Positions 3 through 22,966 of a stretch of 47,976 nucleotides of DNA are shown in pieces (the stretch's first letter is position 1; the number at the start of each line of letters is the position of its first letter). The position numbers and the translations under genes were made by a program. The stretch lies in NCBI GenBank assembly GCA_937128235.1, contig CAKZMG010000072.1:1-47976 (forward strand), read 5' to 3'. The notes beneath the pieces were generated by a model. That model ran no database searches. It was not told the origin of the DNA and worked only from the letters and a program-made list of their open reading frames with translations. Source of the DNA: an uncultured Verrucomicrobiales bacterium (GTDB taxonomy: Bacteria; Verrucomicrobiota; Verrucomicrobiia; Verrucomicrobiales; Akkermansiaceae).

Positions 3-833
3 TTACTCAGCAGCCTTTGCTACACTGGCAGCATTAGCTTTTTCTGAGTCTGCCTTTGAGGCATCACTGCGTGACTTATGGAACTCGTTGAATGACTTCT
101 GAGATTCTACAGTCATCGTAGTCACCATGTTAGCATGTCCAGAGCCACAGAGCTGACCACAGACTACAGAGGTCTCCATTTCTTCGATAGGAGTAAACCA
201 CATCGGGATGTCTTTTCCTGGGAATGCATCCTGCTGGATTCGCATTGGAATAATGGAGAAGTTATGAATCACATCCGTAGAAGTCACCTGAAGGATGACT
301 GGTCTATCGACAGGGATTCTTAGCTTGTCCGCGGTAAAGTCATCCCAGCCATTTTTATCATCTGGTGCGATACAAGGATCTCCTTTCGCTGAAACGAGTG
401 AACGATCAATAAAACCAAACTTACCATCTTCACCTGCATAGTGGAAATTCCAGTTAAACTGGAAACCAACCGCTCTAACTCGGACTGGGTTCTCAGTAAG
501 AACTCGGTCATAAGAATCTGTTCTCTCACTCCATAATGGGAACGCGAAGCCTAAAAGAAGCACTGCTTCCACAATGATCACACCCACTTCAAGGTGAGTG
601 GATAGATGACTCTGCACACCGTAGTAAGATGCCTTAGGGTTCTTCTTCTGGCGGAATTTCACCAGTGACACGAGGAAGAATACTGTCCAACCAATGAAGA
701 GCGCGATCATGAACCACGTGACAACATCGATCATGTGACCAACGGTATCACCGTGAGCTGAATAGTTCTTAGGCAGTCCCATCCACTCTGCTGGTGAAAA
801 GGCTAGGGTGTTAAAAATGTTCTGAATAAACAT
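3..833 (-). CDS. coxB: Cytochrome c oxidase subunit II (CuA subunit, no fused cytochrome c)
   Basis: This 276-aa protein is the CuA subunit of an aa3-type oxidase. It accepts electrons from a periplasmic cytochrome c and passes them to haem a in subunit I. There are two N-terminal membrane helices (about residues 37-58 and 82-100) and a C-terminal cupredoxin domain. The CuA set is complete: a histidine near residue 190 (VIHNF) and CGQLCGSGHANM near 225-236, giving C-x3-C-x3-H-x2-M. The aromatic patch reads FQFNWNFHY. The glutamate at the start of helix 2 (LEVG) that supports the K-channel entry is present. There is no CxxCH, so unlike caa3 enzymes it carries no haem c. It is the last gene of the minus-strand operon. 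CoxII is often first in oxidase operons, so its place after CoxI, III and IV is unusual. Confidence 0.95.
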   Translation of the reverse strand: MFIQNIFNTLAFSPAEWMGLPKNYSAHGDTVGHMIDVVTWFMIALFIGWTVFFLVSLVKFRQKKNPKASYYGVQSHLSTHLEVGVIIVEAVLLLGFAFPLWSERTDSYDRVLTENPVRVRAVGFQFNWNFHYAGEDGKFGFIDRSLVSAKGDPCIAPDDKNGWDDFTADKLRIPVDRPVILQVTSTDVIHNFSIIPMRIQQDAFPGKDIPMWFTPIEEMETSVVCGQLCGSGHANMVTTMTVESQKSFNEFHKSRSDASKADSEKANAASVAKAAE

Positions 834-1316: not shown

Positions 1317-1348
1317 GTTATTGGGTTATTGGGTTATTGGGTTACTGG
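1317..1348. repeat. Four tandem copies of an 8-bp unit at the 3' end of the subunit IV gene
   Basis: Three exact copies of gttattgg (1317-1324, 1325-1332, 1333-1340) are followed by a fourth with one change (gttactgg, 1341-1348). The fourth copy contains the stop codon of the subunit IV gene. The block fills the short linker to the next gene and may vary in copy number. Confidence 0.8.
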
Positions 1349-1692
1349 TTGACTCCATCTGGGAGGAGTCCATCAAAAGTGATAGGGTCTAGGAAACCGA
1401 ATGCGAAAAGTAGAATCAGAATTAAACCGAAGGCTAGCGCACCTAGGAAAATCCAGTAAATCGCCTTCTTCTCATGATTTAAGTGCATGAAAATCAGTGC
1501 CACTAAACTAGCCTTAAAGGAGGCAATAGCGATACCAATAACGGCATCATAGGCATCAAACCCATGTCCACCAAAGTCGAGCGCAGGCACTGTAGCTACC
1601 GCCACAGTAATGCCCGTGAACACGAACAAGAGTAACCCGATAATGGTGTAGAGCTTGATTGATTTTTTGATTGCTTCTGGTGAGTCAGCCAT
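1342..1692 (-). CDS. Cytochrome c oxidase subunit IV (prokaryotic COX4/CtaF type)
   Basis: This 116-aa membrane protein has three predicted helices (about 15-36, 48-70 and 78-98). The segment KASLVALIFMHLNHEKK is the recognisable signature of bacterial small subunit IV proteins of caa3/aa3 oxidases, which pack against subunits I and III. It lies directly downstream of coxIII in transcription order. Length and topology match the family. The last codons fall in an 8-bp tandem repeat. Confidence 0.88.
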   Translation of the reverse strand: MADSPEAIKKSIKLYTIIGLLLFVFTGITVAVATVPALDFGGHGFDAYDAVIGIAIASFKASLVALIFMHLNHEKKAIYWIFLGALAFGLILILLFAFGFLDPITFDGLLPDGVNQ

Positions 1693-1743: not shown

Positions 1744-3471
1744 TTACATGAGGTAGAAGATCGGGAATACGAAGATCCATACAAGGTCAACGAAGTGCCA
1801 GAACAGACCGCCGATTTCTACTCGGTTAGCCAGCCACTCAGGATTAGAAAGATACATCTTACGTCCGAAGAATAAGTAGTAACCTAGCACTAGCGCACCA
1901 CCGATCACGTGCAGTCCATGCAGACCAGTGATAGTGAAGTAGATCGCATAGTAGTTATTCATCTTAGGTGAGAACACTGACTCAAATCTAATATCTTCTC
2001 TCGCTACGTGAAGCAGAGGGAAACAATGCATATCTCCATGGTTAAATTTACCGTGATTCGCACCTACAAATCCATCGATCATTCCTGGAGTGTGCTTCTT
2101 GACATTGTTTAAAGTCACCTCTTCACCTGCTTCTTTGATCTTCTTGTAAGCGACCATTTGCTTCCAAGTGATGCGGTAGAGTTCCACGTCGGTTGGCACG
2201 CGGTTCGGCTGACCTTCATCGTCCAGCTTGTATTCATCTTTGAGATAAGTAGTCCAGAGTGTGCGCCATTCCTTATGCATTGCCCAGTATTCTCTGATCT
2301 GCTCAGCACCCTTGCTATCACCAAGATTCTTATACCAATCCTCGATCATTCCATCGATCTTCTCTTGGCTATATTTGCGGTCACGCGCCTTCATCACGAG
2401 ATGTCTGTGATCCACAGCATCCACATCAATGTCCATACCCGAGTCCCCTGCTACTCCGAGGATGGCAGTTCTATCAAGCAATGAAACCGCAGTATCTGCA
2501 CCAATCTTAGAAGCAGACATTCTGCCCCAATCTGGACTAATTTTGATCTCAGCATTATCCACCTTGAGTTTGAATAGCCCGCTGTTGTCAACAATCGTAC
2601 CAAACTTGCCACTGTCTATAATTTTACCAGCCTCCTCATTTGCTGCATCCTTCTTAGCTTGGTCATACTGCGTAAGATCTTGCACAGCATTAAAATTGCC
2701 ACCATCAATAGACTTATTCGCTCTCACATTTCTCCAAGACTGCCTAGTAGCAGACTCCCTGACCTGCTCATTATGCATTCTTGTCTGAATGAATGACTCC
2801 TTTGCAGCTGCTAAAATATAGCGAAGTGAACCTTCCGTCTCATCATCACCCTTCAGATCAATCGCATCACCAGCATTGACCAATGGTTTCTGAATCAGCT
2901 TATCACCATCAAATTCATTAATGATCACATTTTTGGCAGCAGTGGCCTTTGTATCACCAATGCGCTTTGTGATCTCATCCAAGTAAGGTCCATGATAGCT
3001 ACCGAGATCGAAGTTAATCTCATTCGCATTCACTACGTAGAAATTTCCGCCATGTCCATCTTTCTCAGGATGCGTGTGTCCTTCAATGGTTGTCCAGTCA
3101 TTGTATTGTGCCGCTTGGTGATGGAATTTAGCATTGTACTCAAATCCCTTCAGCACCATGAAAATAAGCGCACAGAAAATAGTGAAACTCATGTAGCCCA
3201 CAAAGCCTTTCCAGTTGCGGAGCTTGAGAGATGCCCATGCGAAAACCACGGTGACAGACGAAGCGATCAGGATAAATGTGTTCACAAGTCCAGGCAGCAC
3301 AGGAAGCGCACGCTCTGGCCATGGGTAATCTGCGAAGATTCTCAAGAAAATATAGGATGAGAATAACCCTCCGAAGAGCATCACCTCGGATGCCAAGAAC
3401 AGCCAGATCGCTATTTTTGAGTTATTCAGACCCGTATCTTTACGGGCATTTACGATGTATGGGATTTCCAT
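1744..3471 (-). CDS. coxC: Cytochrome c oxidase subunit III with a ~375-residue insertion
   Basis: This 575-aa protein is subunit III of the aa3 oxidase, which stabilises subunit I and its proton uptake. The core is a five-helix form: helices near 20-47 (with the conserved glutamate in LASEVMLFGG), 62-82, 90-108, 507-530 (ITGLHGLHVIGG) and 552-573 (HFVDLVWIFVFP). Between the third and fourth helices lies a hydrophilic, charged segment of about residues 120-495 with no CxxCH, no membrane helix and no domain I recognise. The core alone would be about 200 residues. Basic residues after helices 2 and 4 place the insertion in the periplasm, where cytochrome c or complex III would dock. The frame is open throughout, so this is not a frameshift artefact. 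It sits between coxI and subunit IV. Confidence 0.92.
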   Translation of the reverse strand: MEIPYIVNARKDTGLNNSKIAIWLFLASEVMLFGGLFSSYIFLRIFADYPWPERALPVLPGLVNTFILIASSVTVVFAWASLKLRNWKGFVGYMSFTIFCALIFMVLKGFEYNAKFHHQAAQYNDWTTIEGHTHPEKDGHGGNFYVVNANEINFDLGSYHGPYLDEITKRIGDTKATAAKNVIINEFDGDKLIQKPLVNAGDAIDLKGDDETEGSLRYILAAAKESFIQTRMHNEQVRESATRQSWRNVRANKSIDGGNFNAVQDLTQYDQAKKDAANEEAGKIIDSGKFGTIVDNSGLFKLKVDNAEIKISPDWGRMSASKIGADTAVSLLDRTAILGVAGDSGMDIDVDAVDHRHLVMKARDRKYSQEKIDGMIEDWYKNLGDSKGAEQIREYWAMHKEWRTLWTTYLKDEYKLDDEGQPNRVPTDVELYRITWKQMVAYKKIKEAGEEVTLNNVKKHTPGMIDGFVGANHGKFNHGDMHCFPLLHVAREDIRFESVFSPKMNNYYAIYFTITGLHGLHVIGGALVLGYYLFFGRKMYLSNPEWLANRVEIGGLFWHFVDLVWIFVFPIFYLM

Positions 3472-3521: not shown

Positions 3522-5384
3522 TTAGTGACTGTCCTTAGGTGCAATGCCGGCATCGAGGTCAGAAGATGTCGTCTCCACTGGCTCATGCCACTGTGGGTAG
3601 AAGTCCTCCTCACAGTCAGGGCGGCTGTATTCGTATGGTCCGCGGTAAGCGGCAACATCGAAGGTAAAGTTACCATGTCCCGGAGGCGTAGGTGTAGCCC
3701 ACTCCAGCGTAGTAGCATCCCACGGATTGTCATTTTCCACCTTCTTACCAGTTTTCCAGGCAGTGAAGAGGTTGATGATAAATGGAATCTGTGCCGCAGC
3801 GAGACAGAATACTGAGATAGACATCAGCTGGTTGAGACCGATCCATTCGGTGACAGTCTGCCCGAACACGTCTTCTGAACCTTCAGCAGGAAGGTAACCA
3901 TCACCACCATTATACCAACGACGGTGGAAACCTGCCATTCCCTGAAGTAACATCGGGAAGAACACTAGGTTAATAAAGATCAGTGATGGCCAGAAGTGAA
4001 GATGACCAAGGACATTGCTCATGTAGCGACCAAACATCTTAGGATACCAATAGTAGATACCGGCAAAGAGTCCAAAGAGAATACCCGGTGCCACCACGTA
4101 GTGGAAGTGCCCGATCACGTAGTAGGTATCATGCAAGTGCAGATCCACTAAGTTGAATGCAAGTGGCAATCCTGTCAGACCACCGATTCCAAACATTGGC
4201 AGGAATGCGCATGCCCAGATCATCGGCATCGAGAAGCGGATGGAGCCACCCCACAGCGAAATTAGCAATGAAGTAATGAGAACCACAGATGGCACTGAGA
4301 TCAGCACGGTAGTAGTCTGGAAGAAGGTAGAAACTGATGGTCCCATACCTGTGAGATACATGTGGTGAGCCCAAACAATGAAGGAGAGGAAACCAAGCAC
4401 GATCACCGCATACACCATAGACTTGTAGCCCCAGAGTGGCTTACGTGTGTTCGTAGGGATAATTTCTGCCACACAGGCAATGGACGGTAACAGTAGAACA
4501 TACACCTCAGGGTGGCCGAGGAACCAGAACAAGTGCTGGAACAGAAGCGGAGAACCACCACCTGCGTAGTCAGCTGCTCCTGCATCTGTGTAGAGACCAG
4601 TAGGCTGGAAGAATGAAGAACCGAACGTTCTGTCCACCACTTGCATGATACCAGCTACTTCGAGCGGTGGGAATGCAAGTAGAAGAAGGAATCCAGTGAC
4701 AAGCATCGCCCATACCAAGAAAGGCAAGCGCATCCATGTCATCCCCTTACAGCGTAGGTTAATAATGGTAGTAATGAAGTTTACCGAGCCCAACAAGGAC
4801 GAGGAAATCAAGAACACCAGACCTAACAGCCATTGGGTCTGCCCAGTGAAAAATTGGTTCGGATGCTGCGAGTCCGCGAATGAGGAAAGCGGCGGATAGT
4901 TCGTCCATCCAGATTTAGCTGAGCCAGACTCTAGGAAGAATGAGCCACACATCATGAGACCACCAACGGCGTAGAGCCAGTAAGAAGCACAGTTTAGCTT
5001 AGGGAATGCCATATCTGGCGCACCGATCTGAAGCGGAGTCACGTAGTTACCAAAGGCACCAAAGCCGAGCGGAACCACACCGAGGAAAACCATGATCGTT
5101 CCGTGCATCGCACCAAACATATTATAAGTCTCACCTTCCACCTTACCAGCAGTCAGCCATCTAGCCTTCCACTCATCAGTGAATACCCAGCTCATCCAAG
5201 TAGGAACTGGCTCTTGCGGGTAGGCGATGCTCCAACGCATCATCATCATCAGGAAGAATCCGAAGAGCAGAAAGAGCAAGGCTGTGATACCGTATTGCAT
5301 ACCGATCATTTTGTGGTCGGTGGAGAAAATGTACTTCTGCCAGAACGGCGGATTGTGGTGATCGTGATGGTCGTCAGCGCTCAT
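3522..5384 (-). CDS. coxA: Cytochrome c oxidase subunit I (aa3-type, catalytic)
   Basis: This 620-aa haem-copper oxidase catalytic subunit reduces O2 to water and pumps protons. Visible ligands are H94 (haem a, GAMHGT), H291 with Y295 in GHPEVY (CuB and cross-linked tyrosine), H340-H341 (WAHHMY), and H426 and H428 in GHFHYV (haem a3 and haem a). D-channel residues are present: D124 in GAPDMAFP and E293 in GHPE, as in A1-type oxidases. In the helix that normally reads VPTGIK the sequence is VPSVVL, so the K-channel lysine is replaced by leucine at about residue 369. There is a His/Asp-rich N-terminus and a long C-terminal tail. It lies downstream of the cbb3-like module and upstream of coxIII. 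Confidence 0.96.
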   Translation of the reverse strand: MSADDHHDHHNPPFWQKYIFSTDHKMIGMQYGITALLFLLFGFFLMMMMRWSIAYPQEPVPTWMSWVFTDEWKARWLTAGKVEGETYNMFGAMHGTIMVFLGVVPLGFGAFGNYVTPLQIGAPDMAFPKLNCASYWLYAVGGLMMCGSFFLESGSAKSGWTNYPPLSSFADSQHPNQFFTGQTQWLLGLVFLISSSLLGSVNFITTIINLRCKGMTWMRLPFLVWAMLVTGFLLLLAFPPLEVAGIMQVVDRTFGSSFFQPTGLYTDAGAADYAGGGSPLLFQHLFWFLGHPEVYVLLLPSIACVAEIIPTNTRKPLWGYKSMVYAVIVLGFLSFIVWAHHMYLTGMGPSVSTFFQTTTVLISVPSVVLITSLLISLWGGSIRFSMPMIWACAFLPMFGIGGLTGLPLAFNLVDLHLHDTYYVIGHFHYVVAPGILFGLFAGIYYWYPKMFGRYMSNVLGHLHFWPSLIFINLVFFPMLLQGMAGFHRRWYNGGDGYLPAEGSEDVFGQTVTEWIGLNQLMSISVFCLAAAQIPFIINLFTAWKTGKKVENDNPWDATTLEWATPTPPGHGNFTFDVAAYRGPYEYSRPDCEEDFYPQWHEPVETTSSDLDAGIAPKDSH

Positions 5385-5472: not shown

Positions 5473-6243
5473 TTACTTCTCTTGTTCGATGACCTCTCCG
5501 GTCTTCTTATTGATCAAAGTTCCTGGCTCGAACAGATCTCCTTCGAGTTGAATCTTGCGGAATTTATCAAGCTCAGCAGCAGAGCAGAGTCCTTCAGGAC
5601 GCTCAGCCACCATTGCTTTGACCTGGTTCATCTGCTCAGGAGTGTAAATTTTACCAACCTTGTTACCAAAGCTGTTCTGAAGATAGTAAACGAGTGCCGC
5701 CATCTCTAAGTTATCTGTGCTCTTGTTGAGCTGAGGATCCATCTTGCTGTTGAAGCTTTTGCCACTCACAGTGATCGGTCCTTCCACACCATTGATGACC
5801 GCCATAAGAACAGACACTGGTGAATCTATCACATACTCAGAGCCTGCTAGAGGAGGAAACGCTGCGTTTCCTTTACCGTCTGGCTGGTGACAACCTTTAC
5901 ACTTATTGTAAGAGCTTGCACCTTTCGCCATGTAAACTGCTTCCACTTCGCCCATAGGAACAGTTTTCACTCCTCCCACTTCATCAGCCTGCACGTAGCC
6001 AGCTTTGACAAATTTATCATACCCGAAGAGATTATTACTGCTGAAGAGCACGCTGCCGGCAATGATCGCCACGATGCTGCCTGCGATGAATATCCAGATA
6101 GAAACTGGCTCCAGCCCATTTTCACGGACTTGTTGCTCGCGCGTAGCCGCAGCAGATGCACGCGTCACTGCCGCGTGCTGCTCAGCCACATTGGTGGATT
6201 CTTCAAGATCTGGCTTTTTCGGATCTATTGGTTGAACTGACAT
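5473..6243 (-). CDS. Membrane-anchored monohaem cytochrome c in the CcoP position
   Basis: This 256-aa protein has a long charged N-terminus, one membrane helix (about 48-68) and one cytochrome c domain with CKGCH at about 115-119 and FPPLAGSEYV shortly after. A likely axial methionine is in SKMDPQL. In gene order it follows the ccoO-like gene, the usual place of ccoP, but CcoP has two haem c sites and this has one. It could be the third subunit of the cbb3-derived module or an electron carrier between ActE and CuA. Both are inferences from gene order. The C-terminal segment after the haem domain has a charged extension of unknown role. Confidence 0.85.
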   Translation of the reverse strand: MSVQPIDPKKPDLEESTNVAEQHAAVTRASAAATREQQVRENGLEPVSIWIFIAGSIVAIIAGSVLFSSNNLFGYDKFVKAGYVQADEVGGVKTVPMGEVEAVYMAKGASSYNKCKGCHQPDGKGNAAFPPLAGSEYVIDSPVSVLMAVINGVEGPITVSGKSFNSKMDPQLNKSTDNLEMAALVYYLQNSFGNKVGKIYTPEQMNQVKAMVAERPEGLCSAAELDKFRKIQLEGDLFEPGTLINKKTGEVIEQEK

Positions 6244-6302: not shown

Positions 6303-7121
6303 TTACTTTCCTGCCTTCTTCTTATCTTTAGAATACTGCATGGCATAGGGCACTGCACCGTCCTTTTTGAGGCTCATAAGATAGCTTACGATCGCGCGAC
6401 AGTTATCGTTAGGAACTACTTGCTTCCCGCATTTTATCGCTACGGCATCACTCGCGCCTTGTCCGAAGTTGCCTATCTTCTTAAAAAACTGTGGATTCGC
6501 CTGGCAAACTGACCATTCGTTCTCCTGCCCTCTGTCTTCGTGTCCTTCATTGCGTGGGCTGTAGAGGTGCTTATAGACGTAGAGTTCTTTGTTAAATGCC
6601 TTATCGCCAAGCGCATCAATGATTTCCTGCTTGGTCAACTTTGACTTATCTTCCCTCTCAAGAGCTATCCCCATCGCTATGGCAGCCTTCTCGTTCTCTT
6701 CGTTCTCAAGCGCAACGAGTCTGTTTCCGAAGTTACCAAGATCTGGTCCAATGCGGCTCTCACCGATGTGTGCACGATTCTCGCCAGAGAAATCCCAAGC
6801 ATTAGTGATTCTGCGGGTATCTCCCCTTTCAGCATCTTTCTTCGTTCCGCCTTGTCCTTCACGGAAAACATCCATTCCAGCATAGGTCGGGCGCGTCACT
6901 TGTGAGTGACACATGGCACAGCCTTCCTGAGCATAGATCAGTGATCCATTCTCAGTGCGTCCACTGCGCGTTGGTTGATAGAGATCGGTTCGCTCATCGT
7001 TCACCTCATCATAGCTAGGTGCCTCCATGGAGCGCATGGTACCAAATGGGACTGCGAGCATCACTAGCCATGGAAGACCAAAGCTGGCAATGAGTCCGTA
7101 GAAAAATGTCTTAACTGTCAT
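6303..7121 (-). CDS. ccoO: cbb3 oxidase subunit II-like monohaem cytochrome c (CcoO-like)
   Basis: This 272-aa protein has an N-terminal helix (about 7-26) and a cytochrome c domain with CAMCH at 68-72 in the context YAQEGCAMCHSQVTRP. That context is the CcoO signature, normally followed by HSQ(M/V)(I/V/T)RP. Further CcoO-like features are GRIGPDLGNFG-type wording (SRIGPDLGNFGNR) and a C-terminal NCRAIVSYLMSL helix. In true cbb3 oxidases CcoO transfers electrons from CcoP to CcoN. Here the neighbouring CcoN-like subunit appears catalytically dead, so the destination of electrons is uncertain. An insertion of about 70 residues lies between the haem motif and the C-terminal helix and contains extra cysteines. 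Confidence 0.88.
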   Translation of the reverse strand: MTVKTFFYGLIASFGLPWLVMLAVPFGTMRSMEAPSYDEVNDERTDLYQPTRSGRTENGSLIYAQEGCAMCHSQVTRPTYAGMDVFREGQGGTKKDAERGDTRRITNAWDFSGENRAHIGESRIGPDLGNFGNRLVALENEENEKAAIAMGIALEREDKSKLTKQEIIDALGDKAFNKELYVYKHLYSPRNEGHEDRGQENEWSVCQANPQFFKKIGNFGQGASDAVAIKCGKQVVPNDNCRAIVSYLMSLKKDGAVPYAMQYSKDKKKAGK

Positions 7122-7156: not shown

Positions 7157-8677
7157 TTAATTTGCGGATGCGTTTGAATCTAATGATTCGAGTTTATCCA
7201 GATCTCCCTCTGGTCCGTGTGGTGAGGCATGTGCGTGGCGAGCCAGCAGCGTAGGATGGCTACTGCGGCGACCTAGTCTAAGCCACATCAAAAGTAGATG
7301 GCAGCAGAACATAAACGTCGCGATCAGTAGAAAAACAAACCCAGTAGTGAGTCCGATAGCATACGGGTAAAGTCTCCCCACAGCTGCCTCAGTAGGCTCG
7401 CCTACTTGCTCAAGAGTGTAACCATGCATGAAGCCTCCGAGAAGGGTGTAGAATAGTGCGATAAATGTCACACCGTAAACAGTAAGCCAGAAATGCTGAC
7501 TGATCATGCTAGCAGAGATCCACTCGCGGTTCGTGATACGTGGCACGATGAAGTAAATCGCACCGAACATGCACATAGAGAAGAAGCCGAGTAAACCAGT
7601 GAGCTCTAAGCCATATTGTGCTGTAGAGAACTGAGTATATTGAAGCGCACCTGGGAGTGATATGAGTGCGCCTAAAACAGTAAATGTAAGCATTCCATAA
7701 GCTCCTGCCACAGTGAAACGTAATGACGGTGAGTAAGACATGGCATCTTTATTGCTATTCGCAGTTTTGATGATGTTTACGAAGAGAGCAATCGCTGGGA
7801 TGATCATTAGCACTGCTGCACCTGCACTAAGGAACTGCATGAATGAAGGAATAGGTGTGCCCATCATGCGCTGCATTCCTGCCCATGGTCCCACAATCGC
7901 CAATGCCCAGAATCCGAAGATAGCAAGACTGTATGAATAAACAGGACGACCAGAAACCTTAGGTGCGATGTAGTAAGCACTCGCAGCAGCTACTGGCGTG
8001 AAGAAAAGGAACATCAATGCAGATCTAAACCACGCTGTGGATGCTGTGACCATCAATGGATGGCCATCACCAAGATAAATCTGTGAGAACAAGATTCCTG
8101 AAATCATGATCCATGGGAACCAGAATAATGCGGCAAGTAGATACCACTGAGAAATGTAGATGTGTCCACCACGGCGAACACGGAACGCAATCACTGCCCA
8201 AATACCGATGAGGAAATAAGTAGCTGCGAGAGCGATCATGATTGGCTTAGGAAATGCCATCCAGACAATACCTGTTCCAGACATAAAATTATTAGACCCT
8301 ACAAGAACACACAGAGTACCAATAGCAACCATGAGATTCCAGAAGTGACCAGCCGCTAGGATGATGCCAGACTTCTTGCACTCTTGGCGTGAGAGACGTG
8401 ACATCAGCCAGATGATGACTCCAAACGCAGCTTGCGCTCCCCATCCGTAAATGAGTGTGCTCATGTGCGCTGGCATGGTGCGCCCTACATTGAAGCAGGC
8501 ACAGCAGCTGAGGAAATCTGGTGAGTGTGTCTTAGCAGATGCAATGATGCCGAGCACCAGAGATACCGCTAACCAAGCAGCTCCGCTTGCGAAGAAGAAC
8601 ATCACAGGATGACGCAAAGAGCGGTCAATGTCTGCTCTAAGCTGAGCGTCTTCTATGTTTGGAATTTTTGTTGCCAT
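7157..8677 (-). CDS. CcoN-like membrane subunit lacking the haem-copper active-site ligands
   Basis: This 506-aa protein has about 12 helices and clear CcoN (cbb3 subunit I) similarity, such as SGRPVYSYSLAIFGFWAL, YFIVPRI and ISQHFWLTVYG. Against the CcoN consensus as I remember it, only the first low-spin haem b ligand remains (H71, in PAHMSTLIYGW). The CuB histidine of WWYGHN aligns with S219. The cross-linked tyrosine and paired histidines of YIWAGPHH align with G263, Q269 and R270. The IGHVHSG motif (haem b3 and second haem b ligands) reads YGLELTG, with L357 and L359. The fold is kept but oxygen chemistry looks impossible, and haem binding is doubtful. It is followed by intact ccoO-like and cytochrome genes, so it is probably retained for a structural or electron-routing role. 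That role is inference. Confidence 0.88.
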   Translation of the reverse strand: MATKIPNIEDAQLRADIDRSLRHPVMFFFASGAAWLAVSLVLGIIASAKTHSPDFLSCCACFNVGRTMPAHMSTLIYGWGAQAAFGVIIWLMSRLSRQECKKSGIILAAGHFWNLMVAIGTLCVLVGSNNFMSGTGIVWMAFPKPIMIALAATYFLIGIWAVIAFRVRRGGHIYISQWYLLAALFWFPWIMISGILFSQIYLGDGHPLMVTASTAWFRSALMFLFFTPVAAASAYYIAPKVSGRPVYSYSLAIFGFWALAIVGPWAGMQRMMGTPIPSFMQFLSAGAAVLMIIPAIALFVNIIKTANSNKDAMSYSPSLRFTVAGAYGMLTFTVLGALISLPGALQYTQFSTAQYGLELTGLLGFFSMCMFGAIYFIVPRITNREWISASMISQHFWLTVYGVTFIALFYTLLGGFMHGYTLEQVGEPTEAAVGRLYPYAIGLTTGFVFLLIATFMFCCHLLLMWLRLGRRSSHPTLLARHAHASPHGPEGDLDKLESLDSNASAN

Positions 8678-8715: not shown

Positions 8716-9048
8716 TTACTTAAACTCCTTATTATGCGGGACACCAGAGTCTGCTGGCTGAGTTTCTAGGATCTTTAGCTCACTCGCCGCACTGAAAAGC
8801 GCGCTTGGTGGGAGCTGAACTTCATTGCCCTCTTTTTTGTAGTCGAGCAAAGCCGCCTGTGCCGCTTCTACTTGCTCACGCTTGACGATGCGCTCTTTGC
8901 CGCGCTCATCGTCCACGCTATACATCTCATCAGATTGGATGAAATTCTTAATAATGAAACAAATAATTCCGAATACTACGAAAAGTGCCAGCCCCCACCA
9001 AAAGGTGTTGAAGCGGCGAAGCGGTGTGTCGCGTAGATTAGTTTCCAT
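8716..9048 (-). CDS. Small single-TM protein between actF and the CcoN-like gene
   Basis: This 110-aa protein has one membrane helix at about residues 16-36, a charged stretch (SVDDERGKERIVKREQVEAAQ) and a Pro/Ser-containing tail. It belongs to no family I can name. Its order of helix, acidic segment, EQVEAAQ and LPPS resembles the part of the operon's monohaem cytochrome around its helix, GEVEAVYM and FPPLAGSE, but without any CxxCH. It may be a haem-less relative or simply a similar topology. It is embedded in the ACIII/oxidase operon, 38 nt upstream of the ccoN-like start. Confidence 0.75.
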   Translation of the reverse strand: METNLRDTPLRRFNTFWWGLALFVVFGIICFIIKNFIQSDEMYSVDDERGKERIVKREQVEAAQAALLDYKKEGNEVQLPPSALFSAASELKILETQPADSGVPHNKEFK

Positions 9049-9077: not shown

Positions 9078-10478
9078 TTAGTTATGTAAATTTGCAGACT
9101 CCAGGATACGTGGATCGCGGTTCGGGTAAGTATTCGCGCTACCGATATTTCTTAAGAACATGAAGACGAAGAACGCACCCACGGTGAAGAAGGCAACGAT
9201 GTCACCAAGATAAGCTGAATGCTCTACGAAGAGGCTCTCACCATGCGTGAGTGAAACTCCGCGCTCAGGGATCACTGCGATGTAGAGATCGATAAAGTGA
9301 TACGCGAGTAGATAGAGACATACTGGAACAATGAACTTGGTAGTCTTCTTTACATAGTGAGGAAGGAGAAGCACGAATGGGAGTGCGAAATGTCCGAAGG
9401 TGAGTGAGAGACTCCAGCCCCACCATTCACCAGTATTTCTGAGAATGAAGTATGTAGTCTCCTCAGTGATGTTCGCATACCAGATGAGCATGAACTGTGA
9501 GAATGAAACGTATGCCCAGAAGATAACGAACGCATGCATCAGCTTACCCATGATGTGGTAGTGCTCTTTGCTTGCTACAGTCTGAAGGTATCCTTTACTG
9601 CGTAACCATGTGAGTGTGAGAATAAGAACTGCCATGGAGTTCAGCGCACAACCGGCGAAGAAATACACTCCATACATCGTAGAAAACCACTTGTAATCAA
9701 GCGCCATCATGAAGTCGAGCGCGATGAATGTGGCGACCACCGCGAAGACCGGCATGATCAGACAAGATGCCTTACGTGTCCAGATGAGTCGATCACATGT
9801 AGGGTTAGGATCTGTGTCTTGATTGATAGAAACTTTTCTCTGAATCCAGATACCAGCTCCAAGCAGAAGGAAGAATCCGATCACACGTCCGAGCCAGAAT
9901 GGAAGGTTCATATACCATGACTTGGTCGCAAGAAGTGATTCGTGTGCTGCTTTGAAAGTATCAGCATTAGGTGACGTGTAAGCTCCATGCTCTACTTTTT
10001 TCTCTTTCACATGAGCGTGGTGAGCAAGTGTCACAATCTGATGACGATCATTTTCATGAACAGTTCCGTCTTCATCAATATATTTAGAAGCGACATCACG
10101 GTGAGTTTCCATCCACTCATAGAGATCATTCTGCACGGATGGCAGCATAAGAGGAATAGCGATCACTGCCATGAATGGGAAAACAAATCCCAGATTCTCC
10201 ATCAAGCGGCGGACAGATACACCCCAGCCTGAGTTCGTCACATTATGCAGCGTGGTCCAGAAACAACCACCAAGTGCCAATGAGATAAAGAACATGAAAG
10301 CGAACAACCATGAATACGAGTATCCATCACCAAATGTCTTATCGGTGAAGAGGAAGAAGCTAGCCACCGCTCCGAGAACGAAGACGATAAGTGAGATGAG
10401 TTTCGGCAAGGCTAAGTCGCTAGACTTTACCTTCTCCCCGTTTACTGGGAGGTCCTTAGATGTGACGTGATGTGCCAT
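9078..10478 (-). CDS. actF: Alternative complex III subunit ActF (NrfD/PsrC-like)
   Basis: This 466-aa polytopic membrane protein has about ten helices and is the second PsrC/NrfD-like subunit of ACIII, the quinol:cytochrome c oxidoreductase that replaces bc1. Recognisable segments include SLALGGCFWTTLHNVTNSGW near the start of the core and the GEWWGWSLSLTFGHFALPFVLLLPH region. A hydrophilic loop of about 75 residues (around 118-190, His-rich) separates helices early in the protein. It is placed last of the act genes, as in other act operons, and in tandem with actE. Confidence 0.93.
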   Translation of the reverse strand: MAHHVTSKDLPVNGEKVKSSDLALPKLISLIVFVLGAVASFFLFTDKTFGDGYSYSWLFAFMFFISLALGGCFWTTLHNVTNSGWGVSVRRLMENLGFVFPFMAVIAIPLMLPSVQNDLYEWMETHRDVASKYIDEDGTVHENDRHQIVTLAHHAHVKEKKVEHGAYTSPNADTFKAAHESLLATKSWYMNLPFWLGRVIGFFLLLGAGIWIQRKVSINQDTDPNPTCDRLIWTRKASCLIMPVFAVVATFIALDFMMALDYKWFSTMYGVYFFAGCALNSMAVLILTLTWLRSKGYLQTVASKEHYHIMGKLMHAFVIFWAYVSFSQFMLIWYANITEETTYFILRNTGEWWGWSLSLTFGHFALPFVLLLPHYVKKTTKFIVPVCLYLLAYHFIDLYIAVIPERGVSLTHGESLFVEHSAYLGDIVAFFTVGAFFVFMFLRNIGSANTYPNRDPRILESANLHN

Positions 10479-10533: not shown

Positions 10534-11205
10534 CTACTTCTTGCTGCCTGCATCAAAGATCTCCTTGATCTTCGGGTTGTTGTAGTCTGCTTTCGCGCTT
10601 GCCTGGAGAGCTTTCACATAGGCAACTACTGCCCAGCGATCATAGAGCGTCAGGTCAGATCCCATCTGCCCCATGTTGCCTCTGCCATTCACTACTACTT
10701 CGTAAATATTTCCTTCCACGAGAGTCGATGTGCGTAAATTACTGATCACTGGGACAAAACCATTCGCCTTCACCGTGCCTTCTCCGTTTCCAGAATCACC
10801 GTGACAGATAGCGCATTTGAATCCAAATACCTCGTGACCACGTGTGAGGAGAGCGGTGACGTTTTCAGGCTTATCCAGTTCTAGCTCGGTTGGGAATCCC
10901 TTACCGAAATTAGTCTCGTTAAATCTTCCTGTATGGAGGTAAGTTTCCTTATTTCCGTAGCCACGCAGCTCTGAGTGAACGTCTGCTTCAACAGTATGCC
11001 CCATTGGCACAGTGCCAGCCACTGGCTTACGAGCACCCATGCCGTCCTTGAAGAACTCTGATGGCTTTTGCCCTTTTACGAAATCCATCTCATCCATATC
11101 TGGGAAGATGCGGATTGGTGGCTTTTTAAATTTGTCACCTCTGAAACCGAACGTGCTGATCACGAAGACGATGGCGAGTGCGTATATGAGAAAAAAGTAG
11201 CGCAT
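10534..11205 (-). CDS. actE: Alternative complex III subunit ActE (monohaem cytochrome c)
   Basis: This 223-aa protein has an N-terminal membrane anchor (about 2-20), then the ActE-typical segment PPIRIFPDMDEM and KPVAGTVPMGH, and a cytochrome c domain with CAICHGDSGNGEG and a probable axial methionine in GRGNMGQMG. ActE passes electrons from the ActA/ActB side towards an external acceptor. Here the acceptors could be the monohaem cytochrome or CuA encoded downstream. The gene lies between actD and actF as expected. Confidence 0.94.
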   Translation of the reverse strand: MRYFFLIYALAIVFVISTFGFRGDKFKKPPIRIFPDMDEMDFVKGQKPSEFFKDGMGARKPVAGTVPMGHTVEADVHSELRGYGNKETYLHTGRFNETNFGKGFPTELELDKPENVTALLTRGHEVFGFKCAICHGDSGNGEGTVKANGFVPVISNLRTSTLVEGNIYEVVVNGRGNMGQMGSDLTLYDRWAVVAYVKALQASAKADYNNPKIKEIFDAGSKK

Positions 11206-11232: not shown

Positions 11233-11787
11233 TTAGTCCTCTTCTTCGACGAGTTCGATGTTCGTGCCCCCTGCCGCAGCAAGTAGCTCCTTAGTGTCTT
11301 CTGGAGAGAAATTTGGGTCTCTCGCTTCCACTGCGATGAAGAATCCATCATCAGTGGCGCGGTGAAATTGACGGCTCGCAAACAACGGATGATTTAGCCT
11401 AGGCAGCCCCATGAGACCGAGCAGACAGAATAAAACCGTGAAACCTGAGAAAAGAATCGTGAGCTCAAACATGATCGGGAAAAACGCCGAAGTCGTAAAG
11501 ATGTTCGCCGGCTTAGCCTGCACCACGGTAGGATAAATCATTACCTGAGTGATGTATGCCAGACTGAAACCTGTAAGCAGACCAGTAGATCCACCAAAGA
11601 ATACGAAGTAAGGCAGGATAGAACGCCTCATACCCATCGCATCATCCATTCCGTGGATTGGATAAGGTGAATAGCAGTCCCATTTCTTAAATCCGGCATC
11701 GCGCACTTTCTCAGCACCCTTGTAGAGGGCTGATGCGCTTTCGAATTCGGCTAAATAACCGTAAACTCTTTTTACTGATGTGCTCAC
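11233..11787 (-). CDS. actD: Alternative complex III subunit ActD (DUF3341)
   Basis: This 184-aa DUF3341-type protein carries the characteristic YGYLAEFESASALYKGAEKVRDAGF opening, WDCYSPYPIHGMDDAMG, and two hydrophobic helices (about 60-82 and 100-125). The C-terminal half is soluble (DDGFFIAVEA...). ActD is a peripheral/membrane subunit of ACIII without cofactors. The start is GTG at 11787, which gives the family-typical N-terminus. It is encoded between actC and actE. Confidence 0.93.
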   Translation of the reverse strand: MSTSVKRVYGYLAEFESASALYKGAEKVRDAGFKKWDCYSPYPIHGMDDAMGMRRSILPYFVFFGGSTGLLTGFSLAYITQVMIYPTVVQAKPANIFTTSAFFPIMFELTILFSGFTVLFCLLGLMGLPRLNHPLFASRQFHRATDDGFFIAVEARDPNFSPEDTKELLAAAGGTNIELVEEED

Positions 11788-11836: not shown

Positions 11837-13333
11837 TTAGCACTCCATGTTGCGGTGTTTTCCAGCATCATCTATCTCATACTGATAGGCTGGCTGTGCC
11901 TCCACGCCCTCATCTGGGTGTGCCTGCTTATCGTCAAAGTGTGCGTCACTTTCTAGCAGCGTCCATTTCACCTCAGCGATGTTGATACATGGTAAGAATC
12001 TGAGGAAGAGTAAGAAGAGTGTGAGGAACATACCGATCGTTCCAACGAAGGTAAGAACGTCCACTGGTGATGCCTCGTAGTACTTCCAGTCACCTGGGAG
12101 CCACATACGTGGAAGTGTAGTCACAATGATCACGAATCGCTCAAACCACATACCGATGTTCACCAGCATACAGATACCCATAACGATCCAGAGGTTCTCT
12201 CGGCAGGACTTCAGCCAGAAGGCTTGCGGGGCTACTACGTTACAGAACATCATCACTACATAGGCCCACCAGTAAGGACCAGTGATACGTAGCTTGAATG
12301 CCTCCATCTCATATTTACCACCTGAGTAGTAAGCCACGAAGAGTTCCATCAGATACGCGTATCCCACGATGGTTCCTGTTGCTAAAATGATCTTACACAT
12401 ATTCTCAATGTGCTTCATGGTGATCATGTCATGCAGTCCGTAGATAGAACGTGCCGGGATCATGATCGTCATCACCATCGCAAATCCACCAAAAATCGCA
12501 CCTGCCACGAAGTATGGCGGGAAGATCGTAGTATGCCAACCCGGGACAGTAGATGTCGCGAAGTCAAACGAAACGATAGAGTGAACTGAAAGAACAAGTG
12601 GGGTAGAAAGTGCTGCAAGTAACAGATAAGCCATTTCATAATGACTCCACTGACGGTTTCCACCTCTCCAACCTAAGGAGAAAATGCCATAGAAGAACTT
12701 GCGGATGCCAGGCTTAGCGCGGTCGCGGATGGTAGCCAAGTCTGGAACCATTCCGAGATACCAGAAGATGAGTGAAATCGTAAAATACGTAGAAACCGCA
12801 AACACGTCCCAGAGGAGTGGTGACTTGAAGTTCTGCCAGATCGCATTCGCATTTGGAATAGGAGCCAGGAACCACGCCATCCATACACGTCCCACGTGGA
12901 AGGCTGGGAAAATACCCGCACAACACACCGCAAAGATGGTCATCGCTTCTGCCGCTCGGTTAATCGACGTTCGCCAGTTTTGCCGGGTTAAGAACAGAAT
13001 CGCAGAAATCAACGTTCCCGCGTGACCAATACCAATCCAGAAAACGAAGTTCACAATCGGCCATCCCCACATCGTGCGGTTCGTATTTCCCCACACACCC
13101 ACACCGGTAGAGACCAGGTAGGTCAGTCCACCTACCACTCCGATGAGTGCGATGAGTGAACATGGAATGAAGAGCAACCACCAGAGAAGAGGCTGTGGCT
13201 TTTCCACAATCCCTGCAATACGGTCGGTGATCCAAGCGTAAGAACGTCCGTTGAGAATTAGCTTCTCGCGCTCAAATACGGGAAGAGTGATGCTGCCATC
13301 ATTTTGCTCTGCCTTGTTTTCGTTATCTGCCAT
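11837..13333 (-). CDS. actC: Alternative complex III subunit ActC (NrfD/PsrC-like, quinol side)
   Basis: This 498-aa NrfD-family membrane protein has about ten helices. Typical segments are [58 protein letters not shown] and [14 protein letters not shown]. In ACIII the ActC subunit holds the menaquinol oxidation site next to the Fe-S clusters of ActB. It lies immediately downstream of actB. The C-terminus ends in a short polar tail with MEC as its last residues. Confidence 0.94.
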
Positions 13334-13379: not shown

Positions 13380-16300
13380 CTAGTGCATGTTGATCGTCGC
13401 TCTACCCACATTAGTCGCACCCTCCATCGCTGGATTCGGGTTCTTCACACGCGCCATGTAGGATGTTCTAGGGCGAGTTCCGATGTAGTTGAGTAAGTCG
13501 TAGGTTCTTGGATTCTTAAACTCACCTTGCACGTGTGCAGGTAAATCTTGATCCTCATCTCTAAGTGCCTTGGTCTTCTGGATGTCATCCTTCTTGTTGA
13601 GAAGATTTCCAAACATGATCGCTCCCGCGCTACATGCATCCTGACAGGCTACCGTCACACTATTTGCAGGTGACATGAGCATTTCGTGATCCACTTTAAA
13701 TTCTGTTGATGGCTTGCCAGATTTCTGCACGCCACGCTTCACACTCAGCTTCGCATCTATCTTAGCAGACTGGAGACGCTGCACACAGTAGGTGCACTTC
13801 TCCATCACACCACGCATACGAACAGACACGTTCGGGTTACGCTGGAGTGACTTCGCATCGCCTTCCTGCTTCTCACCAAATGGCCCCTTGTAGAGGTTCT
13901 TGTGGAGAAGTGGATTGCGCTTATTGTAGTCGAAGAAATTAAATCGTCTCGCTTTATATGGGCAGTTATTCGCACAGTAACGTGTTCCAATACAACGGTT
14001 ATACGCCATAGTATTCAGACCATCTTCAGTGTGAACAGTCGCATTCACCGGGCAAACTGTCTCACATGGAGCGCTCTCACACTGCACACATGCCACAGGA
14101 TTTGGAATCATCTCAAGCGGCTTATCCCAGTCCTCAGACGGGTTAGTTGCCTTGTGTTCACCTTCACTGTGTCCGTGATCTTGGTATTCTGCGAAATAAC
14201 GATCCATTCTGATCCAGTGCATTTCGCGGCCCATCGCCACTTGCACTTTTCCTACCACAGGAATGTTATTCTCAGCCTGACACGCCACTAAACAAGCACT
14301 ACAACCTGTGCAGGTGCTGAGGTCGATGGACATTGCCCACTGATGTGATTTATCCCAGAGATGCTCACGGTCGATCTTGTTGCCGTCCTTATCCTTCGCA
14401 TTTCCTACTGGCTTATACTGATCCACATTCTGCGGAGCGTGTGAGTCCATGCCGTGCTTTCTCACCGTAGCGAGTTGCTCTTTGTAGTCCTTCTGATGAT
14501 CGTGACCATCTGGCTCTGTTGGCATCGTTGAAATTTCACGAGCAAGCGCGCGTCCATACATAGAGTGGTGCTCCTGAGTTCTCGCTAGCTTGTAGCGTCT
14601 ATCAGCCACCTTCTCGATAGAAATTCCACCCGCGTAGTAATCACTACCACCTCTGAGCGCATAGCCGTTGAAGCCAGCATTCACGCCTACTGATGAGACG
14701 TTTGCAGTGTTGATGTCATAGTCCGGATCGTTCCCGATAAAGTTTTCTTTCCAGTGCTTATCATAGCCCTGTCCATATCCAAGTGGCAGTGAAACAACGT
14801 TGTCCGCCATTCCGAATGCTACGATCACCACTGCCTCAAGTGATTGATCGCCCACCTTGACGTTGACCATTGGTCCGAAGAGGCTTGGTCCCTCACCGTC
14901 TTCTGAGACAGGAGTAGTTTTCACACCTACATCGGTAGCGATTCCTAGATTCGCCCACCAAGCTTTTTCCTCCTTCTCAAGCTCCACGATGTCCTCGTAG
15001 AGTCCGAGATCCTTCGCAGTCTTCGGTGACATGTAAACAGCGTTGTCCCAAGTCAGTTTAGAAATGGGATCTGGCGCTTCTTGAAGCCACGCGTTGTTCA
15101 CGTAGCGTCCATCGAGCACTGAGTAGTCAGTTGCGAAAACGATGTCTGGCTTGCTCGCATCTGTAGGCTCTACTTCTTCCTTGATAGTAGAGCTTGGAGC
15201 AGCACCTGCTGATGCTGCCTCGTATTTAAACTCTGCATTAAATCCAGTTCTGAGAAGTGTGTTCCAGTTATCCAGTTTAGCCGCAGCGCTTCCGCCTGGC
15301 TTCACCTGAGCTTCAAACACACCTTTCACCGCATCATATGCTGGTGACACTGCATTCGCGTCAGATGAGTCATGTAAATCTACCTTATCCTGAGTCAACG
15401 CCACTAGTAGCTCTAGCTCTTGAATACCACCGTAAAGAGGCAGGATCATTGGCTGAACTACAGTGTAAACGCCCTCGTTCCCAGAGAACCCATCGCCCCA
15501 GCTCTCAAGATAATGAGCCGCAGGAATGTGAAGTGATGCCGCATTTGCAGTAGCATTCGTCTGGTCACCCCAGTGGATGAGCTTCTTGTCAGCGACAAAA
15601 TCTGTGAATGTTTGATCTCCTGAACCAAGGATAGGATTTTCATAAACAGGATTCGCAGCAGTCATCAAGATCACAGTCTCAAGTGAACCTGCATCGTTAG
15701 CGAAATCTTCCATGGTTCCAAGATCCGCATGTTGCTTCCCTTTACGAGCTGTTAGAACTCCAGCTGAGTATGCTCCGAGTGCTTCGTTGATTTTATAAAC
15801 AACATCGTGAAGCTCTTTCGCGTAGCGGCTACCGAGCAATACAACTCCCCCGCCCGCTTTTAAATCTTCATAGCAAGCCTTAGCCCACTTCGTTTTCGTA
15901 TCAGAAAATGATGTTGCTGGAGCAGTTCCTACGCCAGCATAACTAGCAAGCAAGCTAATGAACTTTCCAATCTGGCTAGGTGCCAATGGCGCGCGGTGAT
16001 CAGCCATGCCTCCTGTCACAGAGTAGGTTGGCTCCACACAGTAGAGTCGGTTGAGTTGCTTCTCGTAAGCTACTGGATCTTCATTGTATCCAGCACCCTC
16101 GGGGCGACGACGATCAAAGAACGCTTTCGTATTGCCCTGATTATCGAGCTCCAAGAAATCACAATCCAGTGAAAGAATCTTACCCGCCTTCGCGAAGTCT
16201 GCCTTTACCACCGCGTGCTTACCGAAGATTCCAGCATCAGATGCCTTCTTCCCTGCACCAGCAAGTGCCTCGTAAGCATAGAATTTTGCACCTGCGTGCT

Positions 16301-16922
16301 TCGCCTTGATCTTAGCGATGAGATCCGTTCTTGTCAGTGAGTCATCCTCACCGAAGACGATTCCGAAGTTTCCGCTCTTGGTGTATTCACCGAGCTTTTT
16401 CACTGCATCACCTCTGCCAATCGACTTGCCATTTTCTAGGAAATAACGTGAACGCGCAGGATCATACAACCCGAGAATCGATGCCTGAGTCATTGAACTC
16501 ACACCATTTGCAGATGGGTTCTGCTTATTAGGCTCTAGCTTGGTTGGGCGACCTTCGTAGTTTGCAGCCACCAGTGGAATCGCTCCAGTCGCGCTCGGCA
16601 TAGATGTCGCGTAATACGTAGGCTTCCCCGGGATAGTCCACTCCACAGAATCAAGAAACGGGACGATCAGTGACTCCGGACGGCGGCATGAAGCGAGACC
16701 TAGACCAGCAAGAGCAGTCGATGCTCCCATTAGTTTGAGAAAATCACGACGTGTGTTTTCTCTATCATCTTCATCGCGCATCACCTCTGCGGCACGCGGA
16801 AATTCTCTATCTACCCACTGACGGAGACCTGGAGTATCCTCTAGTTCTCCGGCACTGCGCCATACCTTAGTTCCACGTTCCTCAGCAGGAACTTCTGGGT
16901 GATGCCATTTACGTTTGCTCAT
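13380..16922 (-). CDS. actB: Alternative complex III subunit ActB (Fe-S / molybdopterin-like, Tat lipoprotein)
   Basis: This 1180-aa protein combines an N-terminal molybdopterin-oxidoreductase-like part and a C-terminal ferredoxin-like part. It has a twin-arginine signal (R58-R59, RRDFLKLMG) ending in a lipobox-like LASC with C79, so a Tat-exported lipoprotein is likely. The C-terminal third carries four cysteine groups: CTGCSACLVAC, CVQCESAPCETVC, CIGTRYCANNC and CTYC followed by CQDAC, consistent with three [4Fe-4S] and one [3Fe-4S] clusters. ACIII ActB is known to lack the molybdenum cofactor. It receives electrons from ActC and hands them to the haem subunits. It is flanked by actA and actC. 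Confidence 0.95.
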   Translation of the reverse strand: MSKRKWHHPEVPAEERGTKVWRSAGELEDTPGLRQWVDREFPRAAEVMRDEDDRENTRRDFLKLMGASTALAGLGLASCRRPESLIVPFLDSVEWTIPGKPTYYATSMPSATGAIPLVAANYEGRPTKLEPNKQNPSANGVSSMTQASILGLYDPARSRYFLENGKSIGRGDAVKKLGEYTKSGNFGIVFGEDDSLTRTDLIAKIKAKHAGAKFYAYEALAGAGKKASDAGIFGKHAVVKADFAKAGKILSLDCDFLELDNQGNTKAFFDRRRPEGAGYNEDPVAYEKQLNRLYCVEPTYSVTGGMADHRAPLAPSQIGKFISLLASYAGVGTAPATSFSDTKTKWAKACYEDLKAGGGVVLLGSRYAKELHDVVYKINEALGAYSAGVLTARKGKQHADLGTMEDFANDAGSLETVILMTAANPVYENPILGSGDQTFTDFVADKKLIHWGDQTNATANAASLHIPAAHYLESWGDGFSGNEGVYTVVQPMILPLYGGIQELELLVALTQDKVDLHDSSDANAVSPAYDAVKGVFEAQVKPGGSAAAKLDNWNTLLRTGFNAEFKYEAASAGAAPSSTIKEEVEPTDASKPDIVFATDYSVLDGRYVNNAWLQEAPDPISKLTWDNAVYMSPKTAKDLGLYEDIVELEKEEKAWWANLGIATDVGVKTTPVSEDGEGPSLFGPMVNVKVGDQSLEAVVIVAFGMADNVVSLPLGYGQGYDKHWKENFIGNDPDYDINTANVSSVGVNAGFNGYALRGGSDYYAGGISIEKVADRRYKLARTQEHHSMYGRALAREISTMPTEPDGHDHQKDYKEQLATVRKHGMDSHAPQNVDQYKPVGNAKDKDGNKIDREHLWDKSHQWAMSIDLSTCTGCSACLVACQAENNIPVVGKVQVAMGREMHWIRMDRYFAEYQDHGHSEGEHKATNPSEDWDKPLEMIPNPVACVQCESAPCETVCPVNATVHTEDGLNTMAYNRCIGTRYCANNCPYKARRFNFFDYNKRNPLLHKNLYKGPFGEKQEGDAKSLQRNPNVSVRMRGVMEKCTYCVQRLQSAKIDAKLSVKRGVQKSGKPSTEFKVDHEMLMSPANSVTVACQDACSAGAIMFGNLLNKKDDIQKTKALRDEDQDLPAHVQGEFKNPRTYDLLNYIGTRPRTSYMARVKNPNPAMEGATNVGRATINMH

Positions 16923-16968: not shown

Positions 16969-17712
16969 CTACCTGTGACAGGTGAAGCAGCTCTCCTTAG
17001 GTTGCACATTCCAGTGATCCTTCAGCATCAGACCCATAGCCTTCTGCGCGTCACCCTTATCATCTAGTTCTAGATCTAAATTATTAGCACTCATGTAAGC
17101 AGTCACTTGATCTGCTGCTGATTGATTCTTCTTAAGATAGTCAGCCGCGCTATACTTGAGGTTAAATACCTCCTCCAGCGGACGAAGTGCGTCTTCTGGA
17201 TTTCTGTGACACTCGATACACATTCCCATGCTGAGATTCTTAGCATGATAAACCACGCGCATCTCATCCACCTGACCGTGGCACTCGATGCAAGAAATTC
17301 CGCGTCCAAGGTGAGCGGAGTGGTTGAAGAAAACATAATCAGGCGCCTTATGAACACGCACCCATTTAATTGGCTTGCCGCTCTCAATGGCATCGAATAA
17401 TGGAGCTAACCGCTCACTATCAGATTTGATTCCACCTTTAACGTGGCAATTCGCACAAGTATTGGCAGTCGGCACGTTTGCGTGACCAGACTTCTCTACG
17501 AAACTATGACAATGGCGGCAATCCAAGCCCAACTGAGTCACATGAAGCTCGTGATCATACGGGATAGGCTGATCCGGCATATAGCCAACTCTCTGAGCCT
17601 TAGGGGTTGCGTAATATGTGAAAGCTGTGACAACGCCAATCGCAAGCGCGCCAATGCAGACTGCGATTTTGAGCGGTACTAGATTTGTCCAGCGAGGAAA
17701 GTAATTAGCCAT
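16969..17712 (-). CDS. actA: Alternative complex III subunit ActA (pentahaem cytochrome c)
   Basis: This 247-aa protein has one N-terminal membrane helix (about 12-33) and five CxxCH motifs: CRHCH, CANCH, CIECH, CIECH and CFTCH, the last close to the C-terminus. This is the number expected for ActA. Other conserved wording includes GYMPDQPIPYDHELHV and FNHSAHLGRGISC. ActA is the periplasmic haem relay of ACIII. It is the first gene of the long minus-strand respiratory operon, with a 10-bp inverted repeat just upstream of its start. Confidence 0.95.
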   Translation of the reverse strand: MANYFPRWTNLVPLKIAVCIGALAIGVVTAFTYYATPKAQRVGYMPDQPIPYDHELHVTQLGLDCRHCHSFVEKSGHANVPTANTCANCHVKGGIKSDSERLAPLFDAIESGKPIKWVRVHKAPDYVFFNHSAHLGRGISCIECHGQVDEMRVVYHAKNLSMGMCIECHRNPEDALRPLEEVFNLKYSAADYLKKNQSAADQVTAYMSANNLDLELDDKGDAQKAMGLMLKDHWNVQPKESCFTCHR

Positions 17713-19010: not shown

Positions 19011-19087
19011 CATTTATTCATGTTAAAAAGATTGGCTAATCGTTCTTGTTCCTATCAGTCTCTATCCAGATCAATCATACATCTAAC

Positions 19088-20338: not shown

Positions 20339-20364
20339 ATCTTCAATATTCAATCCAACACACC

Positions 20365-21786: not shown

Positions 21787-21803
21787 TCTTAACCAATCAA
21801 ACC

Positions 21804-22922: not shown

Positions 22923-22966
22923 TCTCTAAACTCAAAAACTAACACCACACAAATAAACCCACATTT

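Follow-up and report, generated by a model that had tools for sequence, protein, structure and literature searches.

The window, by which we mean the whole stretch of 47,976 nucleotides that was analysed, carries a respiratory operon on its minus strand, in the order ActA-ActB-ActC-ActD-ActE-ActF-110-aa protein-NN-CcoO-like-CytP-CoxA-CoxC-CoxD-CoxB. The genes are listed below, NN being our shorthand for the product of the open reading frame at 7157-8677 and for its family.

16969-17712, minus strand: ActA, pentahaem cytochrome c with five CxxCH motifs, from reading of the operon family
13380-16922, minus strand: ActB, TAT-variant, molybdopterin-like plus FeS part (TIGR04519, 46.8 bits, cut-off 20.6)
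11837-13333, minus strand: ActC, NrfD family (PF03916, 3.9e-25)
11233-11787, minus strand: ActD (PF11821, 5e-57)
10534-11205, minus strand: mono-haem cytochrome c in the ActE position, from position and operon-family similarity
9078-10478, minus strand: ActF, from position and similarity within the operon family, with no Pfam match
8716-9048, minus strand: small protein between ActF and NN, an open reading frame of 110 aa with one hydrophobic stretch (by eye)
7157-8677, minus strand: NN, a CcoN-fold protein whose metal ligands are gone except H71 (PF00115, TIGR00780, HMMER against solved CcoN, fold search)
6303-7121, minus strand: CcoO-like mono-haem cytochrome c with an N-terminal helix (FixO, 3.2e-5, below cut-off; 2.6e-12 to solved CcoO)
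5473-6243, minus strand: CytP, mono-haem cytochrome c with CxxCH and distal Met kept (PF00034, 9.2e-8)
3522-5384, minus strand: CoxA, aa3-type subunit I whose ligand columns hold His (TIGR02891, 564.7 bits, below the cut-off of 670.75)
1744-3471, minus strand: CoxC, subunit III with a long insertion (subunit III models)
1342-1692, minus strand: CoxD, subunit IV (PF03626, 1.3e-11)
3-833, minus strand: CoxB, subunit II without CxxCH, by eye and operon-family similarity

The pentahaem ActA, together with ActB, ActC and ActD, identifies an alternative complex III (ACIII) operon. No family above cut-off was obtained for the 110-aa protein, and some relatives (L013, L018 and L021) have in the slot between ActF and NN a longer protein that carries one CxxCH motif or two. 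CoxC is 575 aa in length, with about 375 residues separating the two stretches matched by subunit III models, and in pMMO-bearing relatives this gene is an open frame of about 268-295 aa. On the plus strand, positions 19046-24274 hold what we take, by eye, to be phosphonate breakdown genes (hydrolase, aldehyde dehydrogenase and aminotransferase). The genome of the window contains three PF00115 genes, namely CoxA, NN and a separate fused CcoNO, which lies on another contig and has all seven ligands.

The NN gene runs from an ATG at 8677 to 7157 and encodes 506 aa with zero internal stops, in agreement with the preliminary description, which called it full length and in frame. It matches Pfam COX1 (PF00115) at 5.9e-38 and scores 113.5 bits over residues 30-458 against the ccoN equivalog TIGR00780, far under the cut-off of 583.15. 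HMMER aligned it with the solved CcoN chains 9g6b, 6xkw and 3mk7, and a profile of 28 sequences (the window NN and 27 relatives) recovered the same chains, with a best E of 4.6e-37. The AlphaFold2 model (pLDDT 82.2) had as its nearest PDB structure CcoN 3mk7 of P. stutzeri (C-type, cbb3) at a TM-score of 0.82 by query, and places 1-7 of the search were all cbb3 CcoN. NN therefore has the COX1 fold and CcoN kinship, and the earlier alignment with cbb3 subunit I is borne out by both sequence and fold searches. The adjoining CcoO-like gene is a further likeness to the P. stutzeri system.

The ligand positions of NN are H71, S219, G263, Q269, R270, L357 and L359, with six of the seven catalytic positions replaced. 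In the alignments to the three solved chains, the His of WWYGHN is matched by S219, the Tyr column by G263, the HH pair by Q269/R270, and the two His of IGHVHxG by L357/L359. Unlike CcoN of cbb3, the protein thus lacks the three CuB His and the haem b3 His (S219, Q269, R270 and L357) and the cross-linked Tyr (G263), and it retains only one of the two low-spin haem b His (H71, the other being L359). These are exactly the losses that had first been listed, with H71 as the only survivor. The three helices due to carry the lost ligands (207-242, 249-272 and 353-382) hold no His, the nearest being H206, immediately ahead of the first helix. A mere slide of the ligands along the chain, or their displacement to nearby residues, is therefore rejected for the window NN. 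A sequencing error or pseudogene was also rejected, since dozens of genomes show the same pattern in open frames.

A profile of 16 sequences was searched over 288 genomes of the phylum, of which 91 matched at E ≤ 1e-10. NN-type and related short proteins (open frames of about 457-603 aa) scored 172-810 bits, and canonical fused CcoN (about 715-918 aa) scored at most 144 bits, with two further short genes at 146 and 158; G078 (42 bits) was left out of the NN counts. NN was found in 65 genomes of the window's class, 21 with all seven ligands (HHYHHHH, hereafter intact) and 44 with three or fewer (hereafter dead). The same degenerate CcoN, which the preliminary description had thought worth seeking in other act operons, is thus present in 44 of the 65 genomes, and ActF lies upstream of NN in every one of the 65 loci (64 by distance scan, and G072 on reading the region). 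The fetched region includes ActB in 60 loci, the others being G187, G190, G199, G072 (ActE-ActF only) and G134 (ActC at a contig end), and CytP lies downstream in 63, the two without it (G131 and G210) having intact NN. CcoO fell outside the distance limit of the scan in 12 loci, all of which show it on reading the region. NN is a Verrucomicrobiota family: the profile searches were made within this phylum, and the reach across phyla is that of the close-relative scan only, whose 31 loci were all titled Verrucomicrobiota groups.

Among 64 aligned dead rows, named loci included, ten keep none of the ligands, 42 keep one, ten keep two and two keep three, and none of the rows read keeps four to six. 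Retention at the seven positions, with H71 first and Tyr third, is 58, 16, 0, 6, 20, 2 and 5%, a loss far beyond chance or error, and an open frame without an inner stop was observed for every dead NN listed. The cultured strain Rubritalea marina DSM 17716 (L009) is among the carriers of a dead NN. Intact NN scored 216-258 bits against TIGR00780, also under the ccoN cut-off. In family f6 (L085 and L086) the low-spin ligands H71 and H359 are kept and the haem b3/CuB ligands are gone, possibly a partial state, judging from the sequences. Two more short intact CcoN groups occur outside ACIII operons (L069, L071-L074 and L117-L119; L076 and L078), the first adjoining a seven-CxxCH protein of about 590-614 aa in all eight of its loci.

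The partner cytochromes were compared between 64 dead-NN loci and intact-NN loci, two of the seven canonical rows not covering the haem motif. The preliminary description had called the CcoO-like partner intact, and this did not hold. The window CcoO has the N-terminal helix, the CxxCH and the RxGPDL motif, and matches solved CcoO by profile at 2.6e-12, with a Cys column aligned to the distal Met of the solved protein; its model (pLDDT 72.3) gave no fold match at E ≤ 0.001. CxxCH is kept in all 64 dead-NN and 25 intact-NN loci compared. The distal Met is kept in 25/25 intact-NN loci (16 ACIII-linked and nine from the short CcoN groups outside ACIII operons), whereas 29 of the dead-NN loci have Met there, another 29 (the window with 28 close relatives) have Cys, and the last six show A, H, K or R. 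Our guess is that the c haem of CcoO in the window's group may be ligated by His and Cys. CytP keeps CxxCH and Met in 62/64 dead-NN loci, the other two ending short at contig ends, and in 15/15 intact-NN loci, one of them from a short CcoN group outside ACIII operons. Since CytP keeps both ligands and CcoO has lost its distal Met, the partner that is certainly equipped for electron transfer in the window is CytP, not CcoO.

A tree of ActB plus ActC, built by a quick method for the 62 loci in which both proteins were long enough, requires at least eight changes between the intact and dead states, seven of them forced by starred branches. The NN tree was built from 102 rows with the ligand columns removed; it left out 27 loci as near-duplicates or repeat fetches of the same place, the CoxA rows and 11 of the 19 fetched canonical CcoN, and L002 was added. 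In it the dead rows need three changes, two of them forced, and a single clade takes in 61 of the 64 dead rows; its support (86) is unstarred, and long branches were flagged. The fused CcoNO of the window's genome is separate from NN in this tree, and the short CcoN groups outside ACIII operons (eight rows such as L069, and the two rows L076 and L078) branch deeper. One dead clade is not rejected by the NN data (AU p 0.135, or 0.0555 on a subset). The subset tree unites the 15 dead f5 rows in one clade with full SH-aLRT support, yet ActB plus ActC reject such a clade (p 0.004), the f5 group having been chosen after the tree was seen. The two data sets therefore conflict on the number of losses (two to three by NN, seven to eight by ActB plus ActC), which could be explained by transfer of NN between operons or by long branches. 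L104 (G172), which is dead and placed inside an intact family in both trees, is the cleanest separate loss. We claim that the ligands were lost at least two times, and several losses are likely.

The state of NN was also compared with the presence of an aa3 oxidase. A match to TIGR02891 (aa3 subunit I) was detected in 61 of the 65 NN genomes, and NN is intact in each of the other four. All 44 dead-NN genomes have a match of at least 530 bits and 17/21 intact-NN genomes have a match (Fisher p 0.009, with genomes that are not independent); the curated cut-off of 670.75 is reached in 33/65 genomes, and the best matches in dead-NN genomes are often below it. A CoxA gene follows NN within 6 kb in 21/44 dead and 1/21 intact cases (p 0.0006, again with non-independent genomes). 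The simple rule that NN dies when aa3 joins the operon was rejected, as it holds in only 21 of the 44 dead-NN genomes; the other 23 have no CoxA within that distance, the contig of one (G166) ending 1.3 kb beyond NN. In the single intact case, G257, NN is followed by CoxB-CoxA and adjoins dead lineages in both trees, which fits a halfway state. In G001 and G146 (99 and 98% complete) no PF00115 match other than the intact NN was obtained, nor was any cytochrome bd subunit I, which argues that intact NN works; the intact forms probably still reduce O2. G128 and G228, which have no aa3, have intact NN, canonical CcoN and cytochrome bd.

The best explanation, and one that we hold to be fairly probable, is that NN is a non-catalytic membrane scaffold between ACIII and aa3. 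The ancestor of NN would have been the catalytic subunit of a cbb3-type oxidase encoded in one operon with ACIII. In the lineage of the window the aa3 oxidase would have taken over O2 reduction, and NN would have lost the sites for its two b haems and for CuB while keeping its fold and contacts, to serve now as a scaffold holding CcoO and CytP, and the small protein as well, between the two complexes. Electrons would then pass from ActA/ActE to CytP and on to CuA of CoxB, and in the window's group CcoO may have ceased to be a high-potential carrier. The part of this reading that makes the scaffold a wire is weakened in that group because the distal ligand of CcoO has changed. The reading is built on the lost ligands, the modelled fold, purifying selection, the constant operon slot, the intact relatives and the aa3 subunit I of every dead-NN genome. 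Counting against it are the 23 dead-NN loci with no CoxA close downstream and the four loci whose fetched region showed ActE-ActF and no ActB. A physical supercomplex of these proteins would be a prediction of this reading, gene order being what was observed, and NN would be expected to lack haem.

Conservation within NN bears on what the protein may now do. Among the 28 sequences 68 columns are invariant. Besides the seven ligand positions, 46 positions reach at least 85% identity in the dead rows and in the intact rows alike, and dead and intact NN share 19 conserved positions that are not conserved in nine canonical CcoN rows, as expected for an interface special to the ACIII setting. Of 126 conserved positions other than the ligands, 47 are mostly lost in dead NN; no significant clustering of these near the ligands along the sequence was observed (p 0.08 within four residues and 0.84 within eight), so looser constraint over much of the core explains them as well as a precise refit. 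It is conceivable, though we think it unlikely, that NN gained some other metal-free membrane function, for example passing protons or ions, binding quinone or helping to assemble ACIII/aa3. The many-helix fold is kept, and 29 of 32 close relatives have D or E between the two lost His (position 358), both of which would suit this reading. However, T330, S333, S337, H303 and H349, conserved in intact NN, are mostly lost in dead NN, and no new polar set common to all dead lineages was seen, D18, N114 and Y179 of the 19 shared positions being found in intact NN as well.

Purifying selection acts on dead NN. The dN/dS ratio is 0.044-0.287 in the 11 pairs, out of 13, that had a measurable dS, rough values as many dS exceed 1; these are similar to those of ActB and ActF, in several pairs up to about twice as high, and well above those of CoxA (0.012-0.042 where comparable). 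That NN is a relic, a cbb3 core drifting after the aa3 takeover and slowly being lost without a function of its own, is improbable. The somewhat raised ratios, the long end branches of some dead NN (up to 1.34 changes per column), the 47 lost conserved positions and the loss of the CcoO distal Met in 35/64 dead-NN loci would all suit a relic, but the low ratios themselves, the 46 positions shared with intact NN, the unbroken frames and the retention of dead NN across many families speak against it. The invariant columns, the ratios and the constant operon slot instead agree with the earlier proposal of selection for a non-catalytic role, and the view that the active site is erased in a whole gene that looks selected for such a role is supported. 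That NN still holds a single low-spin b haem and relays electrons is most improbable, for although H71 is kept in 58% of dead rows and f6 keeps both low-spin ligands, position 359 of the window NN is Leu with no other His in that helix, and H71 is replaced in many lineages (by F, A, Q, S and others), leaving f6 as the only family in which such a relay is possible.

The dead form of NN also touches the methanotrophs. Since pMMO/AMO genes were found in 5/5 family f4 genomes tested, we call f4 verrucomicrobial methanotrophs. NN was found in 11 of the 13 f4 genomes, with G288 (fragmented) and G008 yielding none, and all 11 copies are dead, their ligand columns reading SESSHFV in five genomes and ADAAHQT/I/V in six. 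None of the 13 genomes has a ccoN match above cut-off, the best being 45.7 bits, as against 216-258 for intact NN elsewhere. In the excerpts consulted, PMC6688271 describes ACIII genes co-located with a cbb3 oxidase, in line with the high O2 affinity of Methylacidiphilum; PMC8498564 lists cbb3, aa3 and ba3 and gives the C-type beside ACIII as special to these methanotrophs and Opitutaceae; PMC11102522 places aa3 and cbb3 genes next to ACIII; and PMC10205796 lists the three oxidase types. Missing ligands are not mentioned in those excerpts of the four papers. As far as the descriptions in PMC8498564, PMC6688271 and PMC11102522 allow, their ACIII-linked 'cbb3' is of the same family and in the same slot as NN; in the same excerpts the gene is treated as an oxidase, whereas here the ligands are gone in 11/11 pMMO-family NN. 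The O2 affinity linked to the ACIII-adjoining cbb3 in the excerpt of PMC6688271 would thus be attributed to a gene that is dead in all 11 f4 genomes where it was found. We lean slightly towards a joint statement: intact ACIII-cbb3 operons, of which some survive, were the starting point from which the class repeatedly made the cbb3 core into a metal-free adaptor of an ACIII-aa3 chain, and verrucomicrobial methanotrophs are without a working cbb3, which goes against the explanation published for their O2 affinity.

The core proteins of the mitochondrial bc1 complex are enzyme-derived structural subunits of a respiratory complex; they differ from NN in fold and enzyme, and intact and dead NN coexist in one bacterial class. 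The series of intact, halfway and dead forms lets the change from enzyme to structural subunit in a respiratory chain be tested directly. The ACIII-aa3 supercomplex of Flavobacterium johnsoniae resembles the arrangement proposed here in that ActABCDEF works with an aa3 oxidase, and it is not known to have a CcoN-like or CcoO-like subunit. This supercomplex is mentioned in the excerpt of PMC8498564.

Among the matches listed in the open-access literature, as judged by titles and the openings of abstracts, no ligand-less CcoN was found. The consulted portions of PMC3578206 (Nitrospina), PMC8407424 (Acidobacteria) and PMC5492636 (Melioribacter) describe cbb3 genes and no ligand-less CcoN. The genes are taken as a sign of low-O2 respiration in the part of PMC8407424 consulted. 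One family here spans a working-looking and a dead cbb3 core, and some bacteria credited with cbb3 are probably without it. An 'unknown group' of PF00115 from Muntyan 2015 is mentioned in the consulted portion of PMC5492636, and this group may overlap NN.
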